Assembly (NCBI GenBank): GCA_947632715.1
Contig: CANRQF010000009.1
Location: forward strand, 1-33,512
Source of the DNA: an uncultured Bacilli bacterium
Lineage (GTDB): Bacteria; Bacillota_I; Bacilli_A; RF39; UBA660
Direction of reading: 5' to 3'
Length of the DNA: 33,512 nt
Shown in pieces: positions 4,827 to 25,192 of the stretch. Every line of letters starts with the position of its first letter. Positions within the stretch are counted from its first letter, which is position 1. Below the pieces are notes generated by a model. The model was given only the letters and a program-made list of their open reading frames with translations, had not been told where the DNA came from and did not search any database. Position numbers and translations under genes: made by a program.

Positions 4827-5534
4827 CTACAATAAATTAGTAATAATGATAATTACTACACCTAATATTATACCATAGATAGTTTCTTTTTGCTTTAAAC
4901 TATCCTTAATTTCATTAAATAATTCAAATGCAAGTATATAAATTAACATACCAAATGTCAATGATAACAATATTCCTGAAATATTATCATTAATATTTCC
5001 TATTAAAACATTAATAGTAGCACCAACTAAAGCACTAATACATAAAATAAATATTAAAAAATAACTCTTTTTATTATTTTCCATTTGACTTCCTATTTGA
5101 AAACCTAGAGGAATATTATGTAAAGAAATACTTAACATCATTAATATACCTGCTCTTAAACTGGTTAATGTGACGTTATATAATGTAAATCCTTCAATTA
5201 AATTATGAATAGCTAAAGCCAAAATAGTTATTACCCCTATATGATTTAAATGATGTGTATGTTCTCTATGATTATGTTCATGATGATATGGAATAAGCTT
5301 ATCCAAAAGAATAAATAGAAATATACCAATGAAAATAGGAATTATTAAATAGATATTATTATATTCCATAATTTCTGGTAATAAATCAAAGATTAATAAA
5401 CCTATCATAACGACAAAGGCTAAAGCCATAGCAAACATATTCATTTTATCTTTATGATTAGTCTTTTTTAAGATTAAAATACCTATCAAAAAAAATAAGC
5501 CAACAAATAATGATAATATTAGTCCCCAAAACAT
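4827..5534 (-). CDS. ZIP family metal transporter
   Basis: Multi-TM; His-rich loop HHEHNHREHTHHLNHIG; ALAIHNLIEGFTL and SISLHNIPLGFQIG. Confidence 0.88.
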   Translation of the reverse strand: MFWGLILSLFVGLFFLIGILILKKTNHKDKMNMFAMALAFVVMIGLLIFDLLPEIMEYNNIYLIIPIFIGIFLFILLDKLIPYHHEHNHREHTHHLNHIGVITILALAIHNLIEGFTLYNVTLTSLRAGILMMLSISLHNIPLGFQIGSQMENNKKSYFLIFILCISALVGATINVLIGNINDNISGILLSLTFGMLIYILAFELFNEIKDSLKQKETIYGIILGVVIIIITNLL

Positions 5535-5569: not shown

Positions 5570-5599
5570 TAAAAAAAAGGATAATTTTGCAATTATCCT
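5570..5599 (-). terminator. Rho-independent terminator of the giant repeat-protein gene
   Basis: Minus strand AGGATAATT-gcaa-AATTATCCT followed by TTTTTTT; overlaps the stop codon. Confidence 0.8.
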
Positions 5600-8500
5600 A
5601 TTGTTTATAACAATTATCTACTCTAAATGTTAAGTAGCCACTTGCAGACTTATCAATATTTTCAGATTGATCATAGTCTCGATAGTTTCTAAATACTAAT
5701 TGTACATCATAATTATGAATAGTAGAACTTCCACTTCCTGCTCTATTATTAATAGTAATTGTTCCTAATAAGTTTTCACCTTTCTTAAGTTTAACTAAAT
5801 CAGTATCAATATTAGCAACTTGTACACCATCACTAGTTTCACCATGAATTTTTAAAACTAATTGATTATCAACATTACGATTAGTAAAGCTATTCTCATC
5901 AACATAATAGATGATATTATATGTACAAACTGTTATTCCAGAGCTTGAAGCTAAAGATACTCTTGCATCTTCTAAATTGCTTCCTATCTCAATATATTGA
6001 TTATTACCTACAGCATGAGGTGACATTTTATTAGCATCAATATGTAAATTAATTGGGCCTGAATTTTCCATTGTAACTAGAGCATCAACATCTGTATCAT
6101 ATTTGCTATCTTCACATTTACGATCGCAAACGCCATCGCCATCATCGTCACAATTTTCATCACATTTATCGTCACCATTGTAATCACAGTTACGATCACA
6201 TTCTTTATCGCCTGGAATTCCACCTAAGGAACCATCATCACAATTTCGATCACAAACTTTATCACTTGGAAGACCACCATTTGAACCATCATCACAGTTA
6301 TAGTCACAGATATGGTCACCCTTTTTACCACCATGAGAACCATCATCACAGTTACGGTCACAAACATTATCACCTGTTTTACCACCTAAGGAGCCATCAT
6401 CACAGTTATGATCACAGATACCATCACCTGGAATTCCGTTATTATCGCCATTATCACAGTTACGATCACAGACTCTATCACTTGGAGTATTACCAAATGA
6501 ACCATCATCACAATTGCGGTCACAAATTTTATCATTTGGTTTACCATCAAATGAACCATCATCACAATTTCGATCACAAATATCGTCACCAGGTACACCA
6601 CCGAATTCACCATGATCACAGTTGCGGTCACATATTCCATCACCAGCTACTCCACCAAATGAACCATCATCACAATTTTTATCACAAATACCATCATCTG
6701 GAGTACCACCGAATGATCCATCATCACAATTTAATGTACATACTTGATTTTCACAATCATGGTCGCAAACTCCATCACCGGCTTTACCAGGTTTACCATC
6801 ATCACAATTTTTATCACAAATACCATCATTATTAGTATCACAATTGCGGTCACATACTTCGTCATCTTTTGTTCCGCCGAATGATCCATCATCACAGTTG
6901 CGATCACAAACTTTATCGCTTGGAATACCACCGAATGATCCATCATCGCAATCTTTATCGCAAACATGGTCACCTTTTGTTCCACCAAATGAGCCATCAT
7001 CACAGTTACGATCACAAATTCCATCACCTGGAGTACCACCAATTGAACCATCGTCACAATTATGGTCACAAATCTTATCACCGGCTATTCCGTTATTACT
7101 TCCATCATCACAATTTCGATCACAGATGCCATCATTAGGTCTATTTCCAAATGAACCATCATCACAATTTCGATCACATTTGCCATCACCTTTTGTTCCA
7201 CCGAATGAACCATCATCACAATTGCGGTCGCAAATCTTATCACCTGGAATACCACCAAATGTACCATCATCACAATTGGTATCACATTTGCCATCGCCTT
7301 TTGTTCCGCCATTTTTACCATCATCGCAGTTACGGTCACAAACTAGGTCACCAGCAGCTCCACCATTTGAACCATCATCACAATTATGGTCACAAACTTT
7401 ATCGCCAGCTACACCATTATTATTTCCTGTATCACAGTTACGATCACATATACCATCATTAGGTTTACCATCAAATGAACCATCGTCGCAGTTACGGTCA
7501 CATTTACCATCACCAGCTTTGCCACCATTTGAACCATCGTCACAATTACGGTCACAAACTTTATCACTAGGTATACCATTAAATTTACCATCATCACAAT
7601 TAGAATCACATTTATGATCACCTTTTTGACCACCATTTGTTCCGTCATCACAGTTGCGGTCACACTTACCATCATTTATTTTACCATTATTAGTTCCATC
7701 ATCACAATTATGATCACAAATACCATCATTAGCTAAACCTTTGTTATCGCCATTATCACAGTTACGATCACATTTGTCATCACCAGCAGTATTACCAAAT
7801 GAACCATCATCACAGTTACGGTCACACTTGCCATCGCCTGGCTTACCACCGTATGAGCCATCATCACAGTTCTTATCGCATTTACCATCGCCTGGAGTAC
7901 CACCGAATTCACCATGGTCACAATTACGATCACATTTGCCATCGCCTTCAACTCCACCAAATGATCCATCGTCACAGTTACGATCACAAGTACCATCATT
8001 AGGTTTACCACCGTTTGAACCATCGTCACAATTTAGATTACAAACATCTTTATCGCAATTTTTATCACAGATACCATCATCTGGCTCACCACCATTTGAA
8101 CCATCGTCACAGTTACGATCACATTTGCCATCATCTGGATTACCACCATGGGAACCATCGTCACAATTTCGATCACATTTATTATCGCCAGCGTCTCCAC
8201 CAAATGAGCCATCATCACAATCGGAATCGCATTTACCATCGCCGGCATCGCCACCGTTTGAGCCATCATCACAGTTTCGATCGCACTTACCATCATCTGG
8301 AGTTCCATTTAGTGTTCCATCATCACAGTTACGGTCGCATTTACCATCACCTGGATCACCGCCATTAGTTCCATCATCACAATTACGATCACATTTACCA
8401 TCACCGGCATCACCACCGAATGAACCATCATCGCAATTTGTTGTACATTTTCCGCTTGGGTTAGTACAATTGCGGTCACATACTCCATCACCAGGTTTAC

Positions 8501-11486
8501 CGCCATTTGAACCATCATCACAATTGCGGTCACAAACATCGTCACCTTTAGTTCCACCATGGGAACCATCATCACAGTTTTTATCACAAACCCCATCATC
8601 AGGATTACCACCGAATGAGCCATCATCACAGTTACGGTCACATTTGCCGTCACCTTTTACACCATTATTACTTCCATCATCACAATTGCGGTCACATTTA
8701 CCATCACCAGCAGTATTGCCAAATGAACCATCATCACAATTTGTAGTGCATTTTCCACTTGGATTTGAACAGTTACGATCACATTTGCCATCGCCTGCTA
8801 CTCCACCATTAGATCCATCATCACAGTTACGGTCACATTTACCATCACCAGCTACACCGCCATTTGAGCCATCATCACAGTTTTTATCACATACATTATC
8901 ACTTGGTTTACCACCGAATGAACCATCATCACAGTTACGGTCACATTTACCGTCGCCTTCTTTACCACCATTAGATCCATCGTCACAGTTGAAATCACAT
9001 CTATTATCTCCGGCTACACCGCCACCACGACCATCATCACAGTTACGATCACATATACCATCACTTGGCTTACCATTAAATGAGCCATCATCACAATTCT
9101 TATCACAAATGCCATCACCAGGAATACCACCAAATGAACCATCATCACAACTTAAATCACAAACTCCATTACCATCAATATCAACATTTAAATCTGGGAA
9201 TCCATCACCATTTGTATCACAATTTATATCACATTTTCCATCATGATTATTATCTTGATTCATTAAATTTTCATCTGGAACAAAGTCATCATTATTATCA
9301 ATATTAACATCAGGCTTTCCATCACCATTTACATCAATATCAATGTCAGGTTTACCATCACCATTTGTATCAACATTTACATCTGGGAATCCATCACCAT
9401 CCGTGTCACAGTTTAAATCACATTTTCCATCTTTATCTTTATCTTGATTTGTCTTATTTTCTAACTCATCTTGATTATCTGGATGACAATGTAAATCACA
9501 TTTTCCATCTCCATCAACATCTAATTTATTATCAGCTTTACCATCGCCATTAACATCACAATTTAAATCACAAATATCATCATCATTGATATCAATGTTT
9601 ATATCAGGGAAATCATCACCATCTGTATCACAGTTAATATCACATTTTCCATCATTATTTGTATCTTGTCCTACTGGATTTTTATCTCCAACGCCATCAC
9701 TATTTGTATCGCAATTGATATCACACTTACCATCTTTATTGTAGTCAATATTAGTATCTGGAACACCATTATGATTTGTATCGCAATTCAAATCACATTG
9801 ACCATCATTATCTAAATCCAAATTAGTATCTGGAATTCCATCATTATCACGGTCACAATTTCTTGTTACACATTTACCAGTTTCATCTGGTTTTGTAACT
9901 GGGTTCTTTTCAACTACTCCATCATGGTCATTATCACAATTTACATCGCATTTACCATCACCATTTAAATCAAAATTGATATCTGGCTTGCCATCACCAT
10001 CTGTATCACAATATAAATCGCAAACTCCATCGTCATCAACATCAATGTTTATATCAGGGAATCCATCATGGTTAATATCACAATTCATGTCACATTTACC
10101 ATCATGATTATTATCTTGATTCATTAAATTTTTATCAGGTAACCCGTCACCATCTTCATCGATAGCGATATCACCTTTACCATCACCAGTTACATCTATG
10201 AATAAATCTGGTTTGCCATCTAAATTAGTATCACAATTGTAATCACATTTCTTGTCATTATCAACATCACAGTTTAAATCACATTCACCATCACCATCTA
10301 AATCAATATTAGGTCTAGTAAATGGATTAGGTTCTTTATTAAAGTCTGGAATACCATCTTTATTTTTATCAAGATTTGAATCTGGAATATTATCTCCGTT
10401 TTTATCACAATTTAGATCACAACGATCATCATCATCAATATCAATATTTATATCTGGATAACCATCACCATTTGTATCACAGTTAATATCACATTTTCCA
10501 TCTTTATTTAAATCTTGATTTGATGGATTTGTAATATTTCCATTACCATCATCACATTGAACATCGCATCTACCATCACGATTATAATCTAAATTTGTAT
10601 CTGGAACACCATTACCATCCGTATCACAATTTACATCACATCTGCCATCACCATCAATGTCAACATTAACATCTGGATAGCCATCTTCATTTTGATCACA
10701 ATTTAGCTTACGACAAATACCATCTTCATCTTTTTTATTTAGTTTATTATTTGTATTGCCACTATCACAATTAAGATCACATTTACCATCTTTATTTATA
10801 TCAATATTCTTATCTGCTATACGATCACCATCTGTATCGCAATTAAGTTCACAAATATCATCATTATTTGTATCAATATTTATTTCTGGGAAACCATCAT
10901 TATCTGTATCACAGTTTAAATCGCATCTTCCATCATTATCTGTATCACGATTCATTAAATTTTCATCAGGTTTACCATCACCATCTGTATCAAGATTGAT
11001 TTCTGGAATACCATCACCTGTAACATCAATATTAATATCTGGTTTGCCATCACCATCTAAATCTAGATTATAATCTGGGAAACCATCATTATCACTATCA
11101 CAGTTTAAATCACATTTACCATCTTTATCTAAATCTTGATTAAGAAGATTTTTATCGGGATAACCATCATTATTAGTATCTAAATTAAACACAGCAGTTA
11201 GATAATTTTTACCATACGTAATATTAGTATCTGGTTTACCATCTTTATTCATATCATAATATGTATCGCAATTTATATCACAGATACCATCATTATTTAA
11301 ATCTAAATTCATGTATGGTCCTCTACCTAATCTTCCGTGTCCAAATAAATCAAACACAAATCCTGTAAATAAAAGGATCAAACATAAAATCATGATTATC
11401 ATCATTATAACTAATGCTAATAATCTTTTTTTATGGATATCTATCATTTCAGTGTTTTCTATAACATTGTTTTCTTCTTCTAACAT
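5598..11486 (-). CDS. Giant (1962 aa) membrane-anchored Asp/Cys-rich repeat surface protein with C-terminal TasA-like beta domain
   Basis: N-terminal TM (RLLALVIMMIIMILCLILLFTGFVF), then DxDGDGxxD-type repeats, about 52 tandem 18-aa CDDGSxGGxxGDGxCDRN repeats, and a ~170-aa non-repetitive C-terminus ending YDVQLVFRNYRDYDQSENIDKSASGYLTFRVDNCYKQ. Confidence 0.93.
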   Translation of the reverse strand: MLEEENNVIENTEMIDIHKKRLLALVIMMIIMILCLILLFTGFVFDLFGHGRLGRGPYMNLDLNNDGICDINCDTYYDMNKDGKPDTNITYGKNYLTAVFNLDTNNDGYPDKNLLNQDLDKDGKCDLNCDSDNDGFPDYNLDLDGDGKPDINIDVTGDGIPEINLDTDGDGKPDENLMNRDTDNDGRCDLNCDTDNDGFPEINIDTNNDDICELNCDTDGDRIADKNIDINKDGKCDLNCDSGNTNNKLNKKDEDGICRKLNCDQNEDGYPDVNVDIDGDGRCDVNCDTDGNGVPDTNLDYNRDGRCDVQCDDGNGNITNPSNQDLNKDGKCDINCDTNGDGYPDINIDIDDDDRCDLNCDKNGDNIPDSNLDKNKDGIPDFNKEPNPFTRPNIDLDGDGECDLNCDVDNDKKCDYNCDTNLDGKPDLFIDVTGDGKGDIAIDEDGDGLPDKNLMNQDNNHDGKCDMNCDINHDGFPDINIDVDDDGVCDLYCDTDGDGKPDINFDLNGDGKCDVNCDNDHDGVVEKNPVTKPDETGKCVTRNCDRDNDGIPDTNLDLDNDGQCDLNCDTNHNGVPDTNIDYNKDGKCDINCDTNSDGVGDKNPVGQDTNNDGKCDINCDTDGDDFPDINIDINDDDICDLNCDVNGDGKADNKLDVDGDGKCDLHCHPDNQDELENKTNQDKDKDGKCDLNCDTDGDGFPDVNVDTNGDGKPDIDIDVNGDGKPDVNIDNNDDFVPDENLMNQDNNHDGKCDINCDTNGDGFPDLNVDIDGNGVCDLSCDDGSFGGIPGDGICDKNCDDGSFNGKPSDGICDRNCDDGRGGGVAGDNRCDFNCDDGSNGGKEGDGKCDRNCDDGSFGGKPSDNVCDKNCDDGSNGGVAGDGKCDRNCDDGSNGGVAGDGKCDRNCSNPSGKCTTNCDDGSFGNTAGDGKCDRNCDDGSNNGVKGDGKCDRNCDDGSFGGNPDDGVCDKNCDDGSHGGTKGDDVCDRNCDDGSNGGKPGDGVCDRNCTNPSGKCTTNCDDGSFGGDAGDGKCDRNCDDGTNGGDPGDGKCDRNCDDGTLNGTPDDGKCDRNCDDGSNGGDAGDGKCDSDCDDGSFGGDAGDNKCDRNCDDGSHGGNPDDGKCDRNCDDGSNGGEPDDGICDKNCDKDVCNLNCDDGSNGGKPNDGTCDRNCDDGSFGGVEGDGKCDRNCDHGEFGGTPGDGKCDKNCDDGSYGGKPGDGKCDRNCDDGSFGNTAGDDKCDRNCDNGDNKGLANDGICDHNCDDGTNNGKINDGKCDRNCDDGTNGGQKGDHKCDSNCDDGKFNGIPSDKVCDRNCDDGSNGGKAGDGKCDRNCDDGSFDGKPNDGICDRNCDTGNNNGVAGDKVCDHNCDDGSNGGAAGDLVCDRNCDDGKNGGTKGDGKCDTNCDDGTFGGIPGDKICDRNCDDGSFGGTKGDGKCDRNCDDGSFGNRPNDGICDRNCDDGSNNGIAGDKICDHNCDDGSIGGTPGDGICDRNCDDGSFGGTKGDHVCDKDCDDGSFGGIPSDKVCDRNCDDGSFGGTKDDEVCDRNCDTNNDGICDKNCDDGKPGKAGDGVCDHDCENQVCTLNCDDGSFGGTPDDGICDKNCDDGSFGGVAGDGICDRNCDHGEFGGVPGDDICDRNCDDGSFDGKPNDKICDRNCDDGSFGNTPSDRVCDRNCDNGDNNGIPGDGICDHNCDDGSLGGKTGDNVCDRNCDDGSHGGKKGDHICDYNCDDGSNGGLPSDKVCDRNCDDGSLGGIPGDKECDRNCDYNGDDKCDENCDDDGDGVCDRKCEDSKYDTDVDALVTMENSGPINLHIDANKMSPHAVGNNQYIEIGSNLEDARVSLASSSGITVCTYNIIYYVDENSFTNRNVDNQLVLKIHGETSDGVQVANIDTDLVKLKKGENLLGTITINNRAGSGSSTIHNYDVQLVFRNYRDYDQSENIDKSASGYLTFRVDNCYKQ
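6160..9160 (-). repeat. 54-bp tandem repeat array encoding the 18-aa Cys/Asp/Gly unit, about 52 units
   Basis: Manual alignment of the translation gives CDDGS[FNHL]GGxxGDGxCDRN repeated with few interruptions (CxNPSGKCTTN twice, CDKDVCNLN, CENQVCTLN). Confidence 0.95.
9160..11330 (-). repeat. Degenerate array encoding EF-hand/TSP3-like Asp repeats (DxDGDGxPDxNxDxDGDGxCDLNCD)
   Basis: Repeated Dx[DN]xDG motifs in the translation. Confidence 0.92.
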
Positions 11487-11499
11487 CTAAATCACCTCA

Positions 11500-12129
11500 T
11501 TATTTTTGATCCTTTGGGGTACTCTTAACATTTAATTTTAAATTTACAAGTTTACTTATTTCTGTCGTAGGTGTTGTGTCTATTAACCAAATATATACTC
11601 GATATGTTGTTGTTGCTTTACTATTTATAGTTCCACTTATAATTGGATATGAACCATCAGTGTTTGTCTTAATATTGCTTATTACTGATGAATAACTACT
11701 AGTATCACCTAAAGTCAACCATCTACCTATAGTTTCATTATATATGCCAACCCTCAAATAACTCATATTAACACGCTCGGCTTCTGTTTTTCCTGTAGGC
11801 AAAGTATCATTAGCTAAGCTAACTGAAAATTTGGCATCCAAACTACCAGTATTTTTTAATACTAGCTTAGCATAACTATTACTATCACCTTTAGGAGTAG
11901 ATGTTTGAGCTGTTGGATAATCAGATTCAGTAGAAGGCATTAATGATGATGTCATTTTTGTAGAAGTTACCGTTACATCAAGAGTTCCTGCTTTAAATTT
12001 TTGAATGTTCGTAGTTGATTTCACTGAAAATACATATGAATATGTTACATTTACAGTTAATAAAGCTAATACTACTACTGATAAAACTATTACAAGCGTA
12101 TTTTTCTTTATCTTTTTAAATGATATCAT
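11500..12129 (-). CDS. TasA/camelysin-like SipW-type-signal protein
   Basis: 209 aa; hydrophobic signal ending VTYSYVFSVKSTTNIQKFKAGTLDVTVTSTKM, then AKLVLKNTGSLDAKFSVSL and TTTYRVYIWLID, typical TasA-family pattern. Confidence 0.75.
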   Translation of the reverse strand: MISFKKIKKNTLVIVLSVVVLALLTVNVTYSYVFSVKSTTNIQKFKAGTLDVTVTSTKMTSSLMPSTESDYPTAQTSTPKGDSNSYAKLVLKNTGSLDAKFSVSLANDTLPTGKTEAERVNMSYLRVGIYNETIGRWLTLGDTSSYSSVISNIKTNTDGSYPIISGTINSKATTTYRVYIWLIDTTPTTEISKLVNLKLNVKSTPKDQK

Positions 12130-17367: not shown

Positions 17368-17412
17368 GCAGAAATAATAATTCTGAATATATTATAAATG
17401 TAAGGAGTGTTT

Positions 17413-18414
17413 ATGAAAAGAAAAATTACATTTAGTTTATTAGCAATTATTATTTTAATTATAATTGGATTAATATCCGGTTTGTTTTTTAAAAAAGATA
17501 CTAAAGATAATGATTTAACTACTATTAAAGTTTCTGAAGTAACTCATAGTATTTTTTATACACCTTTTTATGTAGCTATTGAAAAAGGTTATTTTAAAGA
17601 TGAAGGTATTAATATTGATTTAATGCTTGTAAGTGGTAGTGATAATGTTGCTGCTTCCGTTTTATCAAACGATACAGAAGTTGGGTTAGCTGGTCCTGAG
17701 TCTGCCACTTATGTTTATTTAGGTAAAGAAAAAGACTATTTACAAGTTTTTGCTGGACTTACTAAACGAGATGGACAATTTATTATATCAAGAATATCAA
17801 GAGATAAAAAAGAATTTGCATGGGCTGATTTAATAGGAAAAGAAATATTAATTGGCAGAAAAACTGGTATGCCTGGTTTAAGTTTCTTAAGAGCATTACA
17901 AAATGAAGGTATTAATATAAATGATGTTAATATTAATGAATCTGTGGAATTTGCTGAATTATCTGGAGCTTTTTTAGCAGGTGAAGGAGACTTTGTTAAT
18001 TTATTTGAACCACTTGCCTCAAAATTAGAGCAAAATAAAAATGGCTATGTTGTTACAAGTGTAGGAGCATCATCTGATGATTTTCCTTATACCGCATTTT
18101 ATGCTAGAAAAAGTTATATTGAAAATAATAAAGAATTATTAAAAAAATTTAGTAAGGCCATAGATAAAGGTATTAAATATACATTAGATAATGATGGTAG
18201 TACAATTGCTAAAGATATTCAAAAACAATTTAGTGATACATCTATAGAAGATTTAAGTTTAATGATTAATAGATATAAAGAAGCAGATGTTTGGTTAGAT
18301 AATCCTTTTGTCGAAGAAGACTTCTTTAATACATTAATTACTTTACTTGAAGAAAACGGATTGATAAAAGAAAAAGTTAATTATAATGATTTAGTTAATA
18401 ATATGTATGAATAA
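17413..18414 (+). CDS. ABC transporter substrate-binding protein (NMT1/SsuA/ThiY-like)
   Basis: Signal anchor; IKVSEVTHSIFYTPFYVAIEKGYFKDEGINIDLMLVSGSDNVAASVLSNDTEVGLAGPES. Confidence 0.88.
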   Translation: MKRKITFSLLAIIILIIIGLISGLFFKKDTKDNDLTTIKVSEVTHSIFYTPFYVAIEKGYFKDEGINIDLMLVSGSDNVAASVLSNDTEVGLAGPESATYVYLGKEKDYLQVFAGLTKRDGQFIISRISRDKKEFAWADLIGKEILIGRKTGMPGLSFLRALQNEGININDVNINESVEFAELSGAFLAGEGDFVNLFEPLASKLEQNKNGYVVTSVGASSDDFPYTAFYARKSYIENNKELLKKFSKAIDKGIKYTLDNDGSTIAKDIQKQFSDTSIEDLSLMINRYKEADVWLDNPFVEEDFFNTLITLLEENGLIKEKVNYNDLVNNMYE

Positions 18415-18826
18415 TTTATTAGAAATTAAAGATTTAACAAAGAGTTACCACACGAAAGAAGGAGAAATACTAGCTATCAAAGATATTAGTTTTAATATAA
18501 ATAAAGGAGAAATAATATCGTTAGTAGGTCCTTCTGGGTGTGGTAAATCTACTCTTTTATCAATCATATGTGGACTTGATAAATTAGATAAAGGTATTAT
18601 AAAAAAAGATAAATATTTAAAAATAGGATATATGTTACAAAATGATGCTCTACTTCCCTACTTAACAATATATGAAAATTGTATTTTAGGTTTAAAAATC
18701 CAACATAATATAACTAAAGAAAGATTAGAATATGTTGAATATTTATTAAAATTATATAATTTAGATGAGTTTAAAAATAATTATCCTAGTAGTTTATCTG
18801 GTGGTATGAAGCAAAGAGTTGGATGA
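18407..18826 (+). pseudogene. Truncated ABC transporter ATP-binding protein (NitT/TauT/SsuB-like)
   Basis: Walker A GPSGCGKST, Q-loop QNDALLP, signature LSGGMKQRVG then TGA; Walker B, D-loop and H-loop absent; no permease follows. Confidence 0.88.
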
Positions 18827-19301: not shown

Positions 19302-19332
19302 AATCCTAGTAGTCTATTCGATTACTAGGATT
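19302..19332. terminator. Hairpin between convergent genes, overlapping the stop codon of the large SipW-type-signal protein
   Basis: AATCCTAGTA ... TACTAGGATT. Confidence 0.6.
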
Positions 19333-21253
19333 CTTCACCTGGCAATTTTATTTCAAATGCTGTTGTAGGAGTCTTTCCATCTCCACTTTTTATTATAACA
19401 TCTTCACTCAAAGTAATAGTTGGTTTTACAGCAAAATCTAAATCGTAGTTTTCTTGAAATATACCTTGTGTGTTTACCTCAAATACTCCAATCATCGGGG
19501 AGTTACCATCACCATATGGAGTCATTGTAGCAGTCTTATAATCGTGTGTATCAGTTCCTCCTAATGGATATGCAAACAATTCACCAACAATTGGAAGTCC
19601 AACATAGCCAGTCCAAGTATTCGTTGTTTTTTCACAGTCTTTAGTAGTTTCAGAAGTGTCTGTTTTTTTACATATCGTATTTTTATAACTACCAATCCTG
19701 CTTCCATCTTCAGGTTTAAGTTGAGCAGGATTTACATAATAAGTATCTTCAACCAAATATTTTTTTATACCTTGTTCTTCAAGTTTATTAAGCCACGTAT
19801 TATTTAAATACGATAGCCAATAACTATCATTCTTTGAAGCAACAATTCTATCATATGCAATATTTGCACCAGCCTCTTTATCATATGTAAATTCCATACT
19901 ACCAAATTGTTTTAGCATAACACCATTTTCATCTGTGATATATTCAGCGCTTTTTAATTTAGTTACAGTTTTTCCATTAAGTTCATGAGTATTTACTATA
20001 CGATATAACATACCATTAATTGTAACAAGTTCTCCTGGAAGTCTTGTATTTATTTTATCTCCTTCTTTAGCTGCCGACTTATCATCTAGTAAAACAAAGG
20101 GATCCTCTTGTGTTCCATTACCACTAAATTTAATATCTGGTTTTAATATTACTACAGGACGAACTCCAAAAGCGGTATTTGGCACATCCCATCCTGTTAT
20201 GTCACCATTTTGTTGAATTCCATTAACAGCTTTAGCACCAGCACTAATATAGGAAGATAACCACCAACTATGTCCAAGACTTAAAAAATTATGCTCACCA
20301 TCACTGTACTGTCGTACCTTACTATATTCATAAGGATTTAACAAACCAACTGTAGCTTTTACCGTTTCAGGTGGTTCTCTCCAACACCAATCATAAAAAT
20401 AAGATATATCCCAACTAGCATTTTCTACTAATATATTTTCATGATTATATAAAGTGTCTAAAAAATCTTCATTTAACCATTGTTTTATATATGAATTATT
20501 AAATTTTGCATCTTGACCAAAGTTGATGGCCGATACAATATTTTCCGAAATCATTTTTATTGATCCATCATTTAATATTTCTGTTATTCTCCACATTTTT
20601 CCCGAATACCAAACATAATTAAAATCAACACATTCATTACTTCCTGTTAAATATTTATAGTAATGAGGTTCTGCAACCGGTGGAAAATAATCATCTGAAC
20701 ATTTCGTATCAGTTACATGTGGGTGAATCTCCGTGTCCATAAAAGAACAAGTTTTATTATCAGCAAGTTCTATCACATAATTTCCTAGCATACCAATGGT
20801 TACTACTATTTTAATTTCCTTTGTATATGGTTCTGTTACCTTTACAACAAGCGTAACACTACCACCGGTTTTCGTATTTTCTCCTTTTGGAGTTAATTTC
20901 AATTCAATATCTTCATCCTGTTTGGATGCTTCAATTGTTCCTGTTATTTGTTGTTCTAAAGTAAAAATATCATTTTCTTCTAGAGTTATGCTATACTTGG
21001 TTTGAAAAGAATTGTAATTATCTTCAACATAATTTTTAATATTCAAATTTACTGTTTGTACCCCTCTATTAACATAAATTCTATCCGTATTATTCTTAAC
21101 CTCAAAATAGAATGGATATGATGAAAATGTTGTATCATAACGCTTAGTTAATTTATATCTTGCATAAGTTTCACCACAATTTATTGCCAAAGCAATTGTA
21201 ATTAAAAATACTGTAAAAATTATAATTACTTGTTTCTTCTTCATTTTCATCAC
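19325..21253 (-). CDS. Large SipW-type-signal surface protein with two DUF6273-like modules
   Basis: 642 aa; signal ending GETYARYKLTKRYDTTFSSYPFYFEVKN; WRITEILNDGSIKMISEN...WWLSSYI...AFGVRPVVILKPDIKFSGNGTQEDPF and a second similar module. Confidence 0.8.
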   Translation of the reverse strand: MMKMKKKQVIIIFTVFLITIALAINCGETYARYKLTKRYDTTFSSYPFYFEVKNNTDRIYVNRGVQTVNLNIKNYVEDNYNSFQTKYSITLEENDIFTLEQQITGTIEASKQDEDIELKLTPKGENTKTGGSVTLVVKVTEPYTKEIKIVVTIGMLGNYVIELADNKTCSFMDTEIHPHVTDTKCSDDYFPPVAEPHYYKYLTGSNECVDFNYVWYSGKMWRITEILNDGSIKMISENIVSAINFGQDAKFNNSYIKQWLNEDFLDTLYNHENILVENASWDISYFYDWCWREPPETVKATVGLLNPYEYSKVRQYSDGEHNFLSLGHSWWLSSYISAGAKAVNGIQQNGDITGWDVPNTAFGVRPVVILKPDIKFSGNGTQEDPFVLLDDKSAAKEGDKINTRLPGELVTINGMLYRIVNTHELNGKTVTKLKSAEYITDENGVMLKQFGSMEFTYDKEAGANIAYDRIVASKNDSYWLSYLNNTWLNKLEEQGIKKYLVEDTYYVNPAQLKPEDGSRIGSYKNTICKKTDTSETTKDCEKTTNTWTGYVGLPIVGELFAYPLGGTDTHDYKTATMTPYGDGNSPMIGVFEVNTQGIFQENYDLDFAVKPTITLSEDVIIKSGDGKTPTTAFEIKLPGEES

Positions 21254-21262
21254 TTCCTATCT

Positions 21263-21790
21263 TTAAATATTTTTCTTTTCTTTTGGTTTTATTGAACTCA
21301 AAAATAAACATATTCCAAGTAGCATAAATAAAATTATAATTCCCATTGGTTTTTGAAAAAATAATATTACACGCCCTAAAAATGGTATTTTAAAACAATA
21401 TTTTCCTTCTACATTTTCTTTCTCTAATAACTCTTGATCTGTATCAGAATTTGCATCTCCTTTTGTAATGTAATATTCTTTACCATCTTCTTTATAGACT
21501 TCAAATACTCTATGGGTAATTACTGAATTTCCCTCTTTAAATGCTATAATATCATTTTCTTTTATTTCTTTTGCTTCTTTGACAAAAACAATATCCCCTT
21601 CATTTAATGTTGGTTTCATACTTCCTGTTAAAACAATAAAGTTTTTATATCCAAAAAAACTAGGTGTCTTATCTTTAAAAAATAATTTTTGAACTATAAT
21701 AAATGTACTATAAAGAGCAATAATTACTAAAAAAATCCAAAACATAACCTGTGATACTTTTTTAATCATTTTCATTTTAAGCATCACCAT
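21263..21790 (-). CDS. Signal peptidase I, SipW/ER type (second copy; exact start uncertain)
   Basis: IVLTGSMKPTLNEGDIVFVKEAKEIKENDIIAFKEGNSVITHRVFEV...YYITKGDAN, TM at each end; Ser/His-type active site. Confidence 0.9.
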   Translation of the reverse strand: MVMLKMKMIKKVSQVMFWIFLVIIALYSTFIIVQKLFFKDKTPSFFGYKNFIVLTGSMKPTLNEGDIVFVKEAKEIKENDIIAFKEGNSVITHRVFEVYKEDGKEYYITKGDANSDTDQELLEKENVEGKYCFKIPFLGRVILFFQKPMGIIILFMLLGICLFLSSIKPKEKKNI

Positions 21791-22304
21791 CCACTACTTG
21801 TATTGCAATTAAATCAATAGTAAGACTTATATCTTTACCAGCATATTCATAATTATTATCTTCTTTATCCCATTCAATTTTAATATGATACTTGGTTTTC
21901 ATCATCTCATCATAAGGTAATTCATATTCTTCTGTTCTTTTATCATCTAATAATTTTAATTCTTTACCATCTTTATCTGTTAAAGTAACTTTGACAGGTA
22001 TTTCTGAATCTAATGTTACCTTTAAATAATATTTCATTAAAACTTCATTTGTCTTATTATCTTTATCATAATTACTAACAAAGAAATCTGATTCATCTAC
22101 ATCTCCAGGTAACATTTTTTTATTTGTATAAGTAAATGTTGGATTATCCAAACTAATAATAGGTATAGCCACTATATCTTCTGCTTTACCTTCAAGCTCT
22201 CCCATATATCTACTGGAAGTAACATTAAAAGTAAATAAGAATAAAATACTTATACTAAATACTAATAAAATACAAGGTTTCTTTTTTAATTTATACTTTT
22301 TCAT
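21777..22304 (-). CDS. TasA/camelysin-like SipW-type-signal protein
   Basis: Signal then FNVTSSRYMGELEGKAEDIVAIPIISLDNPTFTYTN; C-terminal YHIKIEWDKEDNNYEYAGKDISLTIDLIAIQVVDGDA. Confidence 0.75.
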   Translation of the reverse strand: MKKYKLKKKPCILLVFSISILFLFTFNVTSSRYMGELEGKAEDIVAIPIISLDNPTFTYTNKKMLPGDVDESDFFVSNYDKDNKTNEVLMKYYLKVTLDSEIPVKVTLTDKDGKELKLLDDKRTEEYELPYDEMMKTKYHIKIEWDKEDNNYEYAGKDISLTIDLIAIQVVDGDA

Positions 22305-22322
22305 TGTTACCTCCTTAACTTT

Positions 22323-22913
22323 TTAATTTATCTTTTGTTTTACAATAACCAAAATGTTCATATCTTTATTGTCGTAAATATCTATATCTGGATTTAATAT
22401 TTCATCTTGTTCATCCCAATACCAATATACTTTTATATTTATTTTGTCAGCATCTGTGAAACCAGTTTCTGTCGTTGGAAGAAGTAAATCATTTTTTGCT
22501 ATATTTCCATCTGTTATATCATAATGTGTTTTACCATCATTTACAGTAAAATATTCTAATTTAAAATCCTCATCTAATTCCTCTAACATAAATTTAATTT
22601 CATATTCTAAACTTACCTCTGTACCATCTGGATTTATTGTAAATTCAAAATATCCTCTACTATTTGGTGCTATTTTTCCTTTTGCAAAAGTTTTTGAATC
22701 ATTAAAATCAAACTTAATCGGTGTGCCATCTGTAACATCTATATCATTTACTGATACATTAAACTTTGCTATATCTATACCACCTATTCCTATCGATGTT
22801 TCAACATATCTTGATAAGGTGTAACTTGCCACAAAGAGAACACATACGATTGTATAAAATATCAAAAAGTTTTTAACTCGTTTTTTTAATCTATATCTTC
22901 TTCTTGTAGCCAC
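22323..22913 (-). CDS. TasA/camelysin-like SipW-type-signal protein
   Basis: SYTLSRYVETSIGIGGIDIAKFNVSVNDID; GKIAPNSRGYFEFTINPDGTEVSLEYEIKF; NIKVYWYWDEQDE. Confidence 0.8.
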   Translation of the reverse strand: MATRRRYRLKKRVKNFLIFYTIVCVLFVASYTLSRYVETSIGIGGIDIAKFNVSVNDIDVTDGTPIKFDFNDSKTFAKGKIAPNSRGYFEFTINPDGTEVSLEYEIKFMLEELDEDFKLEYFTVNDGKTHYDITDGNIAKNDLLLPTTETGFTDADKINIKVYWYWDEQDEILNPDIDIYDNKDMNILVIVKQKIN

Positions 22914-22933
22914 TTATTACACCTTCTTTCTTT

Positions 22934-23698
22934 TTAATACCCAGAAGCTGTAATTTTTAACTCTAATTTATAATTAGAATTGATATTTGTACCTACTTCT
23001 GTATCATTACTTGATTCAAACCACTTCCAGTCTAATGTATAAACATCATAAGTATTTGCAGCAAGACCAATATTTTCTTGTTTTAATTCTTCATAAGTTA
23101 ACCATTCATCATCACTTCCTGCTACATATACACCATTTAATTTCAAACGATATTTCATGTTGATATTATATTTGTTATCTTCAAACAAATCTAAATCATA
23201 TTTTATATTAAATTCATTATTGTTTCTTATTACAAATTGATAAGAATTTTCACTTGCTGGAGCAATCTTGTTATCAACAACATAATAAGCTGAGTTAGTA
23301 AAAATATGAAGTTGGGTAGCTTGCGAATATCCTGTTTGTTCATCAAATACTTCTACACCATCTTTATCTTCTGGCGTAGTAGGAGTATTTTGATTATCAC
23401 TACTAGATCCTCCACTTGTATTTCCTCCTGTATTTACAGAACTACCTCCATTATTATTTGAATTACCACCAGTATTGTTATTGCAATTATTACAGCTACC
23501 ATTATTACAATTACAATTATTATCACAATCTTTTTTGAAGATAATATCAAAAATATCTACATTACCTGTTGGAATTTTTGGTTTATGGTCGATAAATCCT
23601 ATATTTCTAACAAGTAAAAAGATAATAATAATTAAGGCGATAAGGATTAATAGCATTACGATAAAGTTTTTTTCATTCTTTTTTTCTTGCTTATTCAT
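22934..23698 (-). CDS. Membrane-anchored protein: TM, Cys cluster, Gly/Asn/Ser linker, TasA-like beta domain
   Basis: TM FIVMLLILIALIIIIFLLVRNIGF; KKDCDNNCNCNNGSCNNCNNNTGG; DNKIAPASENSYQFVIRNNNEFNIKYDLDLFED...YTLDWKWFESSND. Confidence 0.75.
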   Translation of the reverse strand: MNKQEKKNEKNFIVMLLILIALIIIIFLLVRNIGFIDHKPKIPTGNVDIFDIIFKKDCDNNCNCNNGSCNNCNNNTGGNSNNNGGSSVNTGGNTSGGSSSDNQNTPTTPEDKDGVEVFDEQTGYSQATQLHIFTNSAYYVVDNKIAPASENSYQFVIRNNNEFNIKYDLDLFEDNKYNINMKYRLKLNGVYVAGSDDEWLTYEELKQENIGLAANTYDVYTLDWKWFESSNDTEVGTNINSNYKLELKITASGY

Positions 23699-23736
23699 CT
23701 ATATTTATCACCACTTTCCCTTTTCAATTAAAGCCC

Positions 23737-23789
23737 CCAGTAAAGATTATAAAAATCTTATAAACTTTACTGGAAGTTTTAAAACTTCC
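23737..23789 (-). promoter_or_regulatory. Stem-loop pair 3' of the first TasA-like gene
   Basis: CCAGTAAAG...CTTTACTGG arms plus the perfect palindrome GGAAGTTTTAAAACTTCC directly after the stop. Confidence 0.65.
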
Positions 23790-23795
23790 ATAGTT

Positions 23796-24446
23796 TTATG
23801 CTCCAGCAGGAGAATAGCTCTCTCCTTCAATATGTTGTACAGCATAAAGAGTAATAGGAACTTTTAAGTTTGATTCAGTACCATACGCATATTTTCCACC
23901 AGCTGTGTCTGATGTGACTTTTTCATCATTTTTATTGTCCCATGTAACTGTTACAGTTAATGTAAGAGTATCTGCTTCTTCAAAAGCTTTACCTTCTGGC
24001 AATTTTACTACAAAAGGGGCAGTTTGATCTCCATTTTGAGTAAATTCATCAGTTATTTTTCCGTTTCCTTTTACTGAAACTTTTGTTGTAATTGATTCAG
24101 AATCTATACCAAAAGATGACAATCTGCTTTTCAATTGAGAATCATCAATTTTAGAGAAAATATCAACGGATACTTCGGTACCAGTTAAATTCAATGTCAT
24201 AGTACCTGTTGCAGTATATGAAGGGGCAATTTTTCCGTCAACAACATGGTCGCTATGCGTTGGACTTAGAGTTAACTCGAAAGGTTGACCTACACCACCT
24301 AATGCAACATTCCATTTTGCAACATCAACTGACGCATCACCAGTAAACTCACTTGCATATCTTGCATAAGTTCCTCCTACAAAGAATAGTGAAACTGCAA
24401 ATAACATAGCTACTGCCATTACTGATACTACTGTTTTCTTTTTCAT
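23796..24446 (-). CDS. TasA-like major fibre subunit candidate
   Basis: RBS ggaggtgag before MKKKTVVSVMAVAMLFAVSLFFVGGTYARYASEFTGDASVDVAKWNVALGG; SipW-type signal. Confidence 0.85.
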   Translation of the reverse strand: MKKKTVVSVMAVAMLFAVSLFFVGGTYARYASEFTGDASVDVAKWNVALGGVGQPFELTLSPTHSDHVVDGKIAPSYTATGTMTLNLTGTEVSVDIFSKIDDSQLKSRLSSFGIDSESITTKVSVKGNGKITDEFTQNGDQTAPFVVKLPEGKAFEEADTLTLTVTVTWDNKNDEKVTSDTAGGKYAYGTESNLKVPITLYAVQHIEGESYSPAGA

Positions 24447-24478
24447 TATCTCACCTCCTCGTACAATAAATTTTTGGG

Positions 24479-24532
24479 AATAATATTCTAGAATATTATT
24501 TTCTATATATAAAAGGATTCCCACCTTTTATA
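24479..24532 (-). promoter_or_regulatory. Hairpin plus 22-bp perfect palindrome between sipW and the TasA-like gene
   Basis: TATAAAAGG-attccca-CCTTTTATA (24508-24532) and AATAATATTCTAGAATATTATT (24479-24500). Confidence 0.7.
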
Positions 24533-24550
24533 CCGATTTAATTAATAAGG

Positions 24551-25192
24551 TTATTTTTCTTCCTTATTTTCTTTTTGGCGTTCTAATTCTCGTTGCCTTT
24601 TAAATTCTTCAAATTCTAATCTATCTTTTTCATCTTCTTTTCTATATTTTTTGTCATCTCTTCTGCTGACTATATATAGCCATAATAAACCGATTACTAA
24701 AATTACTAATAAAACAATAAATAAACCTATTGGCTTTTGCATGAACATCAAGAAATTCCCAGCTCCTGCAATTCTACCAACATACAAACCTTCAACATCT
24801 TCCATAGCTACTAAATTTTTATCATTTGCGTTGTTAGCATCACCTTTCGTTTGAAAGAATTGTTTACCATCTTCAAAAACAATATCAACAATTCTGTGAG
24901 TTGTAACTGTGTCTGCCTCGTTTCTAAATGCTATAACATCATTTTTCTTTAAAGTAGTTGTATCTACCATTTTTACAAATACTAAATCCCCTGTATGTAT
25001 TGAAGTTTCCATAGAACCTGATAATACTATCATAGGCTTATAGCCAAATACATCTGGTACTTTTGCTGGATCGGTGTTTGCTTTATACATAATTATTCCA
25101 GCTATTAGTAAAATTATAAATGCAAAGGAAAAGAAAATTATTTTACATACTTTGCCAACAATTCCCTTTTTATTTTGCTTATTCTTTTTCAT
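24551..25192 (-). CDS. sipW: Signal peptidase I, SipW/ER type, with charged C-terminal tail
   Basis: IVLSGSMETSIHTGDLVFVK...DVIAFRNEADTVTTHRIVDI...FFQTKGDANNANDKN; TM at each end. Confidence 0.92.
   Translation of the reverse strand: MKKNKQNKKGIVGKVCKIIFFSFAFIILLIAGIIMYKANTDPAKVPDVFGYKPMIVLSGSMETSIHTGDLVFVKMVDTTTLKKNDVIAFRNEADTVTTHRIVDIVFEDGKQFFQTKGDANNANDKNLVAMEDVEGLYVGRIAGAGNFLMFMQKPIGLFIVLLVILVIGLLWLYIVSRRDDKKYRKEDEKDRLEFEEFKRQRELERQKENKEEK

Follow-up and report, generated by a model that had tools for sequence, protein, structure and literature searches.

A contiguous stretch of 33,512 nucleotides (hereafter, the window) from an uncultured Bacilli bacterium (GTDB lineage Bacilli_A; RF39; UBA660; contig CANRQF010000009.1 of assembly GCA_947632715.1) carries a gene for a repeat protein of 1962 amino acids. 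We favour, with moderate confidence and on the basis of sequence and structural modelling, the reading that this stalk protein is a membrane-anchored organiser, a tether and probably also the seed, of a TasA-like surface fibre. Most of what is known of TasA-type fibres comes from Bacillus and archaea, and the way in which cells hold them is not settled. Uncultured gut Bacilli appear to do so via a membrane-anchored repeat stalk with a pilin-derived domain, and the stalk gene and its upstream partner represent a directly testable gene pair. A preliminary description of this DNA had proposed a rigid, Ca2+-loaded, disulfide-stapled stalk that displays a head domain; it recognized the anchor, the stalk and the head, was half right on Ca2+ and unproven on disulfides, and was incomplete because it had overlooked both the obligate TasA-like partner and the relationship of the head to pilins. 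The contig is part of a 1.23-Mb metagenome-assembled genome, and the related records are uncultured Bacilli as well, mostly isolates labelled 'Lapin' (read as rabbit), one from a goat rectum, and others with rumen-type naming.

The stalk gene is read on the minus strand, from an ATG start codon at 11486 to a TAA stop codon at 5598-5600. The previously described open reading frame (ORF; 5598-11486) is thus real and of the length given, but its strand needed correction: the plus-strand translation of the same segment is full of stops, and overlapping ORFs on the plus strand, such as 7741-9246, mirror the repeats and are not genes. The protein begins with a cytoplasmic tail (residues 1-20; 11427-11486) ending in the basic cluster HKK (LKKKKLLAI or ELKKKRLMAI in relatives), followed by a single transmembrane (TM) segment (approximately residues 21-44; 11355-11426) that is a type II signal anchor of positive-inside topology and is kept in relatives. 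Two classes of repeats come next: class A (residues 60-780, 721 amino acids; 9147-11309) consists of 12-residue DxDGDGx[P/C]DxN[C/I/L] units, and class B (residues 781-1791, 1011 amino acids; 6114-9146) of 18-residue CDDGS..GG..GDGKCDRN units plus shorter variants. The C-terminal head (residues 1792-1962; 5601-6113) carries the signature FRNYRDYDQxxNxxK and two invariant Cys residues. The overall composition is dominated by Asp (22.5%), Gly (15.3%), Asn (12.2%) and Cys (8.6%, i.e., 169 residues). There is no C-terminal sortase motif; the protein ends in ...FRVDNCYKQ. Its sequence shows a type II membrane protein (N-in/C-out) with an acidic repeat stalk and a distal C-terminal domain. The N-terminal tail, the single TM segment, the repeats, the non-repetitive C-terminus, the N-terminal position of the anchor and the lack of a sortase motif had been correctly anticipated, the head as a β-structure being borne out by AlphaFold2. 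Searches of Pfam, NCBIfam and PDB sequences with the full-length protein gave no match above cut-off, and promoter and terminator scans found signals no better than those in shuffled sequences.

The partner gene (11500-12129, minus strand) ends 13 nucleotides ahead of the start codon of the stalk gene, an AGGTGA ribosome site lying in between, and encodes a TasA/camelysin-like protein of 209 amino acids. An orthologue of it is found directly upstream and on the same strand in each of the 26 loci with upstream sequence, usually at a gap of 0-22 nucleotides. The structural model of the partner shows a TM segment at residues 9-26, a segment of very low predicted local distance difference test (pLDDT) values at residues 27-48, and then a β-sandwich; the flexible segment is where a donor strand would be, and its low pLDDT is consistent with donor-strand polymerisation. 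In a Foldseek search against the PDB, the bundling pilin of Pyrobaculum calidifontis (7ueg) was the only match below 1e-3 (E 6.2e-5, probability 1.00; TM-scores 0.32/0.35), which places the partner with the TasA/bundling-pilin fold; next in rank were PapG, FimA, FimG and CS20 pilin domains, CanA and Saci_0406, with modest TM-scores of 0.2-0.4. Most of these proteins polymerise by donor-strand complementation. The same principle operates in TasA and the fibres compared with it (PMC9674648). In B. subtilis TasA, a Trp residue occupies position P2 and a Phe residue position P2' of the SipW cleavage site (PMC10269814), and the partner family possesses an invariant Tyr and an invariant Phe at comparable places. 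With TasA/camelysin (PF12389) and the archaeal bundling pili the partner shares the signal anchor, the aromatic residue before the putative cut, the flexible N-terminal strand and the β-sandwich.

The second line of evidence comes from the head of the stalk protein. An AlphaFold2 model of the last 304 residues (mean pLDDT 85.7; repeats roughly 67-87) predicts the head as a β-sandwich of about ten strands, mostly with pLDDT values above 90. When 398 genomes of the class were searched with the head profile, the matches outside the genus were small proteins that stand alone and open with a SipW-type sequence (MEKKSGNTIMLTVIAIATLLVAVVGATFAYFSA...). In hhalign comparisons, the head aligned with the free SipW-type proteins of a sibling genus over 159 columns (probability 94.7, E 5.8e-8), while 40 column-shuffled or reversed control profiles gave probabilities of at most 0.9 and E-values of at least 6e-2. 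These profile comparisons establish homology of the head with SipW-type pilin-like proteins. The alignment begins at residue 59 of the free protein, and the head itself is preceded by repeats; both here and in the comparison of sibling-genus stalks with their neighbours (see below), the head is missing the ~55 residues with which the free proteins begin, i.e., the signal anchor and the region where the donor strand would be. A SipW-type signal and an N-terminal donor segment of its own were accordingly not found in the head. A PDB profile search with the head alignment returned only a chance match (E 0.85), and a scan of viral contigs with the head revealed no relative, giving no indication that it is carried by phages.

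With the full-length protein as query, the same 398 genomes yielded repeat proteins from sibling genera within the family and, beyond it, from two further families, and most of those that were readable again show the succession of N-terminal tail, TM segment, DGDG repeats and C-terminal domain. The loci of relatives are designated here by labels of the L0xx/L1xx type. At sibling loci, though not at all of them, a pilin-like gene is found upstream and/or a SipW peptidase gene downstream of the stalk gene; stalks beside SipW-type proteins were seen in L096, L097, L098, L100, L102, L103 and L107, and stalks beside SipW-like peptidases, identified by their sequence starts, in L098, L100, L103, L107 and L114. 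In the window, the stalk gene adjoins the TasA-like gene and the SipW genes are 9-14 kb away, whereas they are adjacent in several sibling genera. Furthermore, the C-terminal domains of the sibling stalks match the neighbouring SipW-type proteins (probability 98.6, E 8e-16; controls at most 0.7%), and more weakly the head of the window's genus (probability 72.8). Four sibling stalk proteins (L104, L105, L106, L109) have an extra cytoplasmic domain of ~100 amino acids. In other Bacilli families (L111, L112, L113), DGDGxPDxNID repeats are part of surface proteins of 1400-1900 amino acids with a C-terminal hydrophobic anchor, and the repeat is therefore used with either type of anchor.

Taken together, these data suggest the following course of events. 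The signal anchor would direct export of the partner, one of the several SipW-type peptidases of the genome would cleave it, and the subunits would polymerise by donor-strand exchange. The 12-residue DxDGDG units would bind Ca2+ and, in the manner of thrombospondin type 3 (TSP3) repeats, make the stalk stiff so that it holds the head beyond the wall; C-x3-C pairs might rigidify it further, either by disulfides or by metal binding. The head, which is devoid of an N-terminal donor segment of its own, may, more speculatively, take up the strand donated by the first subunit of the partner and in this way tie the fibre to the cell.

A precedent for such a function exists in the accessory proteins TapA (B. 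subtilis) and CapP (BC1280; B. cereus), which are encoded beside tasA/calY and organise the fibres at the cell surface (PMC9674648, PMC10151520, PMC13082335). On the present reading, the similarities are an accessory gene next to that of a TasA/camelysin-type subunit and probable SipW-type processing, and TapA has an Ig-like β-domain. However, TapA and CapP are small secreted or wall-associated proteins, whereas the protein studied here combines a type II TM anchor with a stalk of several hundred to ~1700 amino acids and a C-terminal domain without a donor segment. Strand acceptance by the head is speculative: the fold of TapA is complete, as is that predicted for the head, and TapA instead donates its own N-terminus (PMC10151520). 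In our best model, the stalk protein is an analogue of TapA/CapP, with which no sequence homology is claimed, and because it is a different type of protein we claim only a TapA/CapP-like mode of working. The kind of system, an accessory organiser of a TasA-type fibre, is thus already known, while its form is new as far as our searches and the literature covered show. Only tentatively do we go further and propose, from sequence and models, that gut Bacilli possess a hitherto undescribed class of fibre anchors, in which an acceptor domain of pilin origin that has no donor strand itself sits on a Ca2+-loaded type II membrane stalk and would seed a TasA-like fibre beyond the wall, and that the up to ~166 exported Cys residues of the stalk in this genus, where the known exported disulfide-forming enzymes are essentially absent by standard searches, imply an unknown oxidation route or metal binding.

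Several observations weigh against the assignment as a fibre organiser. The partner scores 16.3 bits against the Pfam camelysin model (PF12389; cut-off 22.5), against 85.3 bits for B. subtilis TasA itself, and only three of 17 partner orthologues match this model at E ≤0.1 (best E 0.004), weak matches that by themselves count on the side of the fibre reading. The hhalign comparison of the partner with B. subtilis TasA is not significant (probability 0.8), and the only stretch that it aligns, again without significance, is the N-terminus of the partner (VFSVKS..NIQKFKAGTLDV versus FNDIKSKDATFASGTLDL; KS....F..GTLdv); a PDB profile search with the partner alignment gave no match. No homology between head and partner was detectable, and a direct relationship of the two was rejected after profile comparison. 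As modelled, the head already forms a complete sandwich and may consequently not accept a strand, and its Foldseek matches are generic jelly rolls, lectins among them, with TM-scores below 0.4, which would also suit an adhesin. The stalks of L104-L106 and L109 adjoin two conserved genes for proteins of ~501 and ~362 amino acids (SDTSWIDMVEESIPYLDNIIRNPRRFIVQEE...) and not a pilin gene. Finally, synteny within a single genus could reflect linkage only.

The strongest competing view, which we regard as possible yet rather doubtful, is that of a self-sufficient adhesin whose stalk carries a lectin-like head past the wall to host or plant glycans, the TasA-like neighbour being an independent surface protein. 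The head fold weakly resembles TNF-like lectins, the N-terminal lectin of BC2L-C and carbohydrate-binding modules, and conservation is lower in the head than in the repeats, as would be expected for an adapting binding surface. These resemblances nevertheless remain at TM-scores below 0.4, the profile homology of the head is to SipW-type pilin-like proteins, the adjacency to a pilin-like gene is obligate, and the invariant head residues (the Cys pair, FRNY, Q and K) look structural.

Returning to the fibre organiser and its stalk, the class A region contains 38 Dx[DN]xDG motifs, predominantly spaced by 12 residues, whereas 1000 composition shuffles averaged 2.0 such motifs and never exceeded 8. 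The unit reads D-x-[DN]-G-D-G-x-[P/C]-D-x-N-[C/I/L], with D1, [D/N]3, D5, G6 and D9 invariant or nearly so, and binding of Ca2+ by these 12-residue units is plausible from their sequence. Class B comprises 51 exact C-x13-C-x3 units (consensus CDDGSFGGxPGDGKCDRN) in which Cys 1, Asp 2, Gly 4, Asp 12, Cys 15 and Asp 16 are invariant; variants of 9, 11, 12 and 17 residues are scattered among them. The earlier outline of this layout, with Cys at positions 1 and 15, holds, with an exact count of 51 units instead of about 52. None of the 51 class B units contains the Dx[DN]xDG motif, and the earlier assertion of two Ca2+-binding-type repeat classes is therefore overstated, as it is plausible for the 12-residue class only. 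Both classes have the core GDGxCDxNC in common, and the 18-residue unit looks like a 12-residue unit in which a Gly-rich insertion replaces the first Ca2+-ligand positions.

Like thrombospondin type 3 and bacterial TSP3 repeats, the stalk has tandem DxDGDGxxD sequences with a 12-residue period, an acidic wire-like character and interspersed Cys residues; it differs in that its Cys residues are arranged as C-x3-C inside the unit (DGDGxCDxNC) and in that the 18-residue class loses the motif. The Pfam models TSP_3 and TSP3_bac did not match the whole protein, nor did they match repeat fragments at E ≤10, although the filters of HMMER may hide short, biased repeats. The resemblance to Myxococcus-type Cys repeats noted earlier was not picked up in NCBIfam or Pfam scans of the 18-residue unit: the CDDG...DGxC...C pattern of the Myxococcus Cys-rich repeat/DUF4215 and of the Lin12/Notch repeat (LNR) is superficially alike, but the number and spacing of the Cys residues differ, and Notch LNR, the only Pfam match of repeat fragments of the 18-residue type, is insignificant (E 0.12). 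An FG-GAP match in the repeats of a relative was discarded, as it rests on 10-residue DGDG stretches only. NCBIfam matches to SdrC/ClfA were dismissed as compositional, that to SdrC (E 7e-24) reaching 83.9 bits in the Asp-rich region versus a cut-off of 1700; the Ser-Asp (SD) stalks of these staphylococcal adhesins (MSCRAMMs) are alike in composition, but the protein described here is devoid of an adhesin A domain and of LPXTG and has its anchor at the opposite end.

The Cys residues of the stalk are strictly organised. In the window protein, 18 of 41 class A units have both Cys residues of the C-x3-C pair, 23 have neither, and none is mixed; over all 43 proteins the corresponding numbers are 693, 797 and 91, and 2087 of 2231 Cys residues have a partner four residues away. 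This strict coupling fits either a local disulfide or a shared metal site. Surveys of 38 genomes of the genus detected neither VKOR nor DsbA (PF01323), control genomes being positive (DsbB, SdbA-like and Erv-like oxidases were not searched for); Thioredoxin_4 was present in one of the 38, and the window's own genome (G000) has a single thioredoxin (ORF of ~104 amino acids). Since members with only two Cys residues, both in the head, exist (L021, L043), Cys is not essential to the stalk. The proposed disulfide stapling is hence not supported as it was worded, and the coupled pairs leave disulfides in the stalk possible. It should be noted that low-molecular-weight oxidants can partly substitute for disulfide-forming enzymes (PMC12453122). 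What emerges is a biochemical puzzle: an exported protein with up to 169 Cys residues, retained site for site from one species to another, occurs in a genus that, by standard searches, is essentially without exported disulfide-forming enzymes.

The coupled pairs and the scarcity of such enzymes would also suit a surface store or scavenger for metals, in which the Asp/Cys array feeds the downstream ZIP transporter and the Cys residues bind soft metals instead of forming disulfides; the ZIP/ZupT-like gene has the same orientation and, of the 19 loci in which it was detected, occupies position +1 in 18. We consider this improbable, as the entire neighbourhood is conserved, including the housekeeping genes typA, yebC and tyrS, the two-Cys members L021 and L043 keep the same partner gene, and the sibling-genus stalks shown adjoin pilin, SipW or other genes and no ZIP gene.

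A whole-protein search detected the stalk family in 28 of 36 genomes of the same genus and not in the 23 genomes of other genera in that sample. Complete members range from 679 to 1982 amino acids and from 2 to 169 Cys residues, with the same N-terminal tail and TM segment and a very variable repeat region; the head is kept in all of them, with 17 invariant columns including two Cys residues and FRNY. A loss of the gene pair in the eight remaining genomes was rejected, and absence is not demonstrated there, because the flanking typA gene was either not found (six genomes) or cut by a contig end on the side of the pair (two genomes); gaps on the typA side are to be expected, because long repeats break assemblies. 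One genome (G028) has two complete partner-stalk pairs on different contigs (L028, L046). With respect to the closest relative (L033), the ratio of nonsynonymous to synonymous substitutions (dN/dS) is ~0.11-0.12 for the repeats and ~0.21 for the head. Identity to L033 is 77% in the head versus 83-88% in the repeats, and 44% versus 75-78% for L032; Cys positions agree at 168 of 169 and 169 of 169 sites, respectively. Repeat units within the protein share 69% DNA identity at a unit-to-unit synonymous divergence (dS) of ~1.25. A recent expansion by slippage was rejected on account of this high dS and low unit identity; together with the low dN/dS, these values indicate that the array is old and maintained under strong purifying selection. 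Such selection (dN/dS ~0.11), and the same 12-residue repeats in large, C-terminally anchored proteins of other Bacilli families (L111-L113), could also befit a structural surface-layer or wall-spacer protein in which the repeat array is the function and the head merely a fold cap, a view made unlikely by the strong variation of repeat number and class between species (679 to 1982 amino acids, 2 to 169 Cys residues) around a head that is always kept.

Candidate processing enzymes for the partner are encoded in the window, though not next to the partner gene: a SipW/archaeal-type signal peptidase I (21263-21790, minus strand; TIGR02228, 117 bits, cut-off 51.85) and a second SipW-type signal peptidase (24551-25192, minus strand; 105.6 bits). 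They are two of seven such matches in the 1.2-Mb genome, and at least one is present in 37 of 38 genomes of the genus. The region in which they lie (19325-25192, minus strand) additionally encodes several small signal-anchor, β-rich proteins, TasA-like in style, and a surface protein of 642 amino acids, and is probably a separate fibre or surface system.

Downstream of the stalk gene, the ZIP/ZupT-like metal transporter gene (4827-5534, minus strand) is found in the same orientation in most relatives, a position that may be operonic or merely a conserved neighbourhood. NitT/TauT-type ATP-binding cassette transporter genes at 17407-18826 (plus strand) look degenerate: the ATPase ORF has 139 amino acids versus 249 in L021, and the permease, present in the loci of 12 relatives, is missing from the window. 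The terminal segment (25413-33511), as read by eye, resembles an integrative mobilisable element, with a tyrosine integrase (25413-26516), an AAA/RepA-like ATPase (29380-30333), a Mob/Pre-type relaxase (30681-32141), helix-turn-helix regulators, and a serine recombinase that starts at 32573 and runs off the contig.

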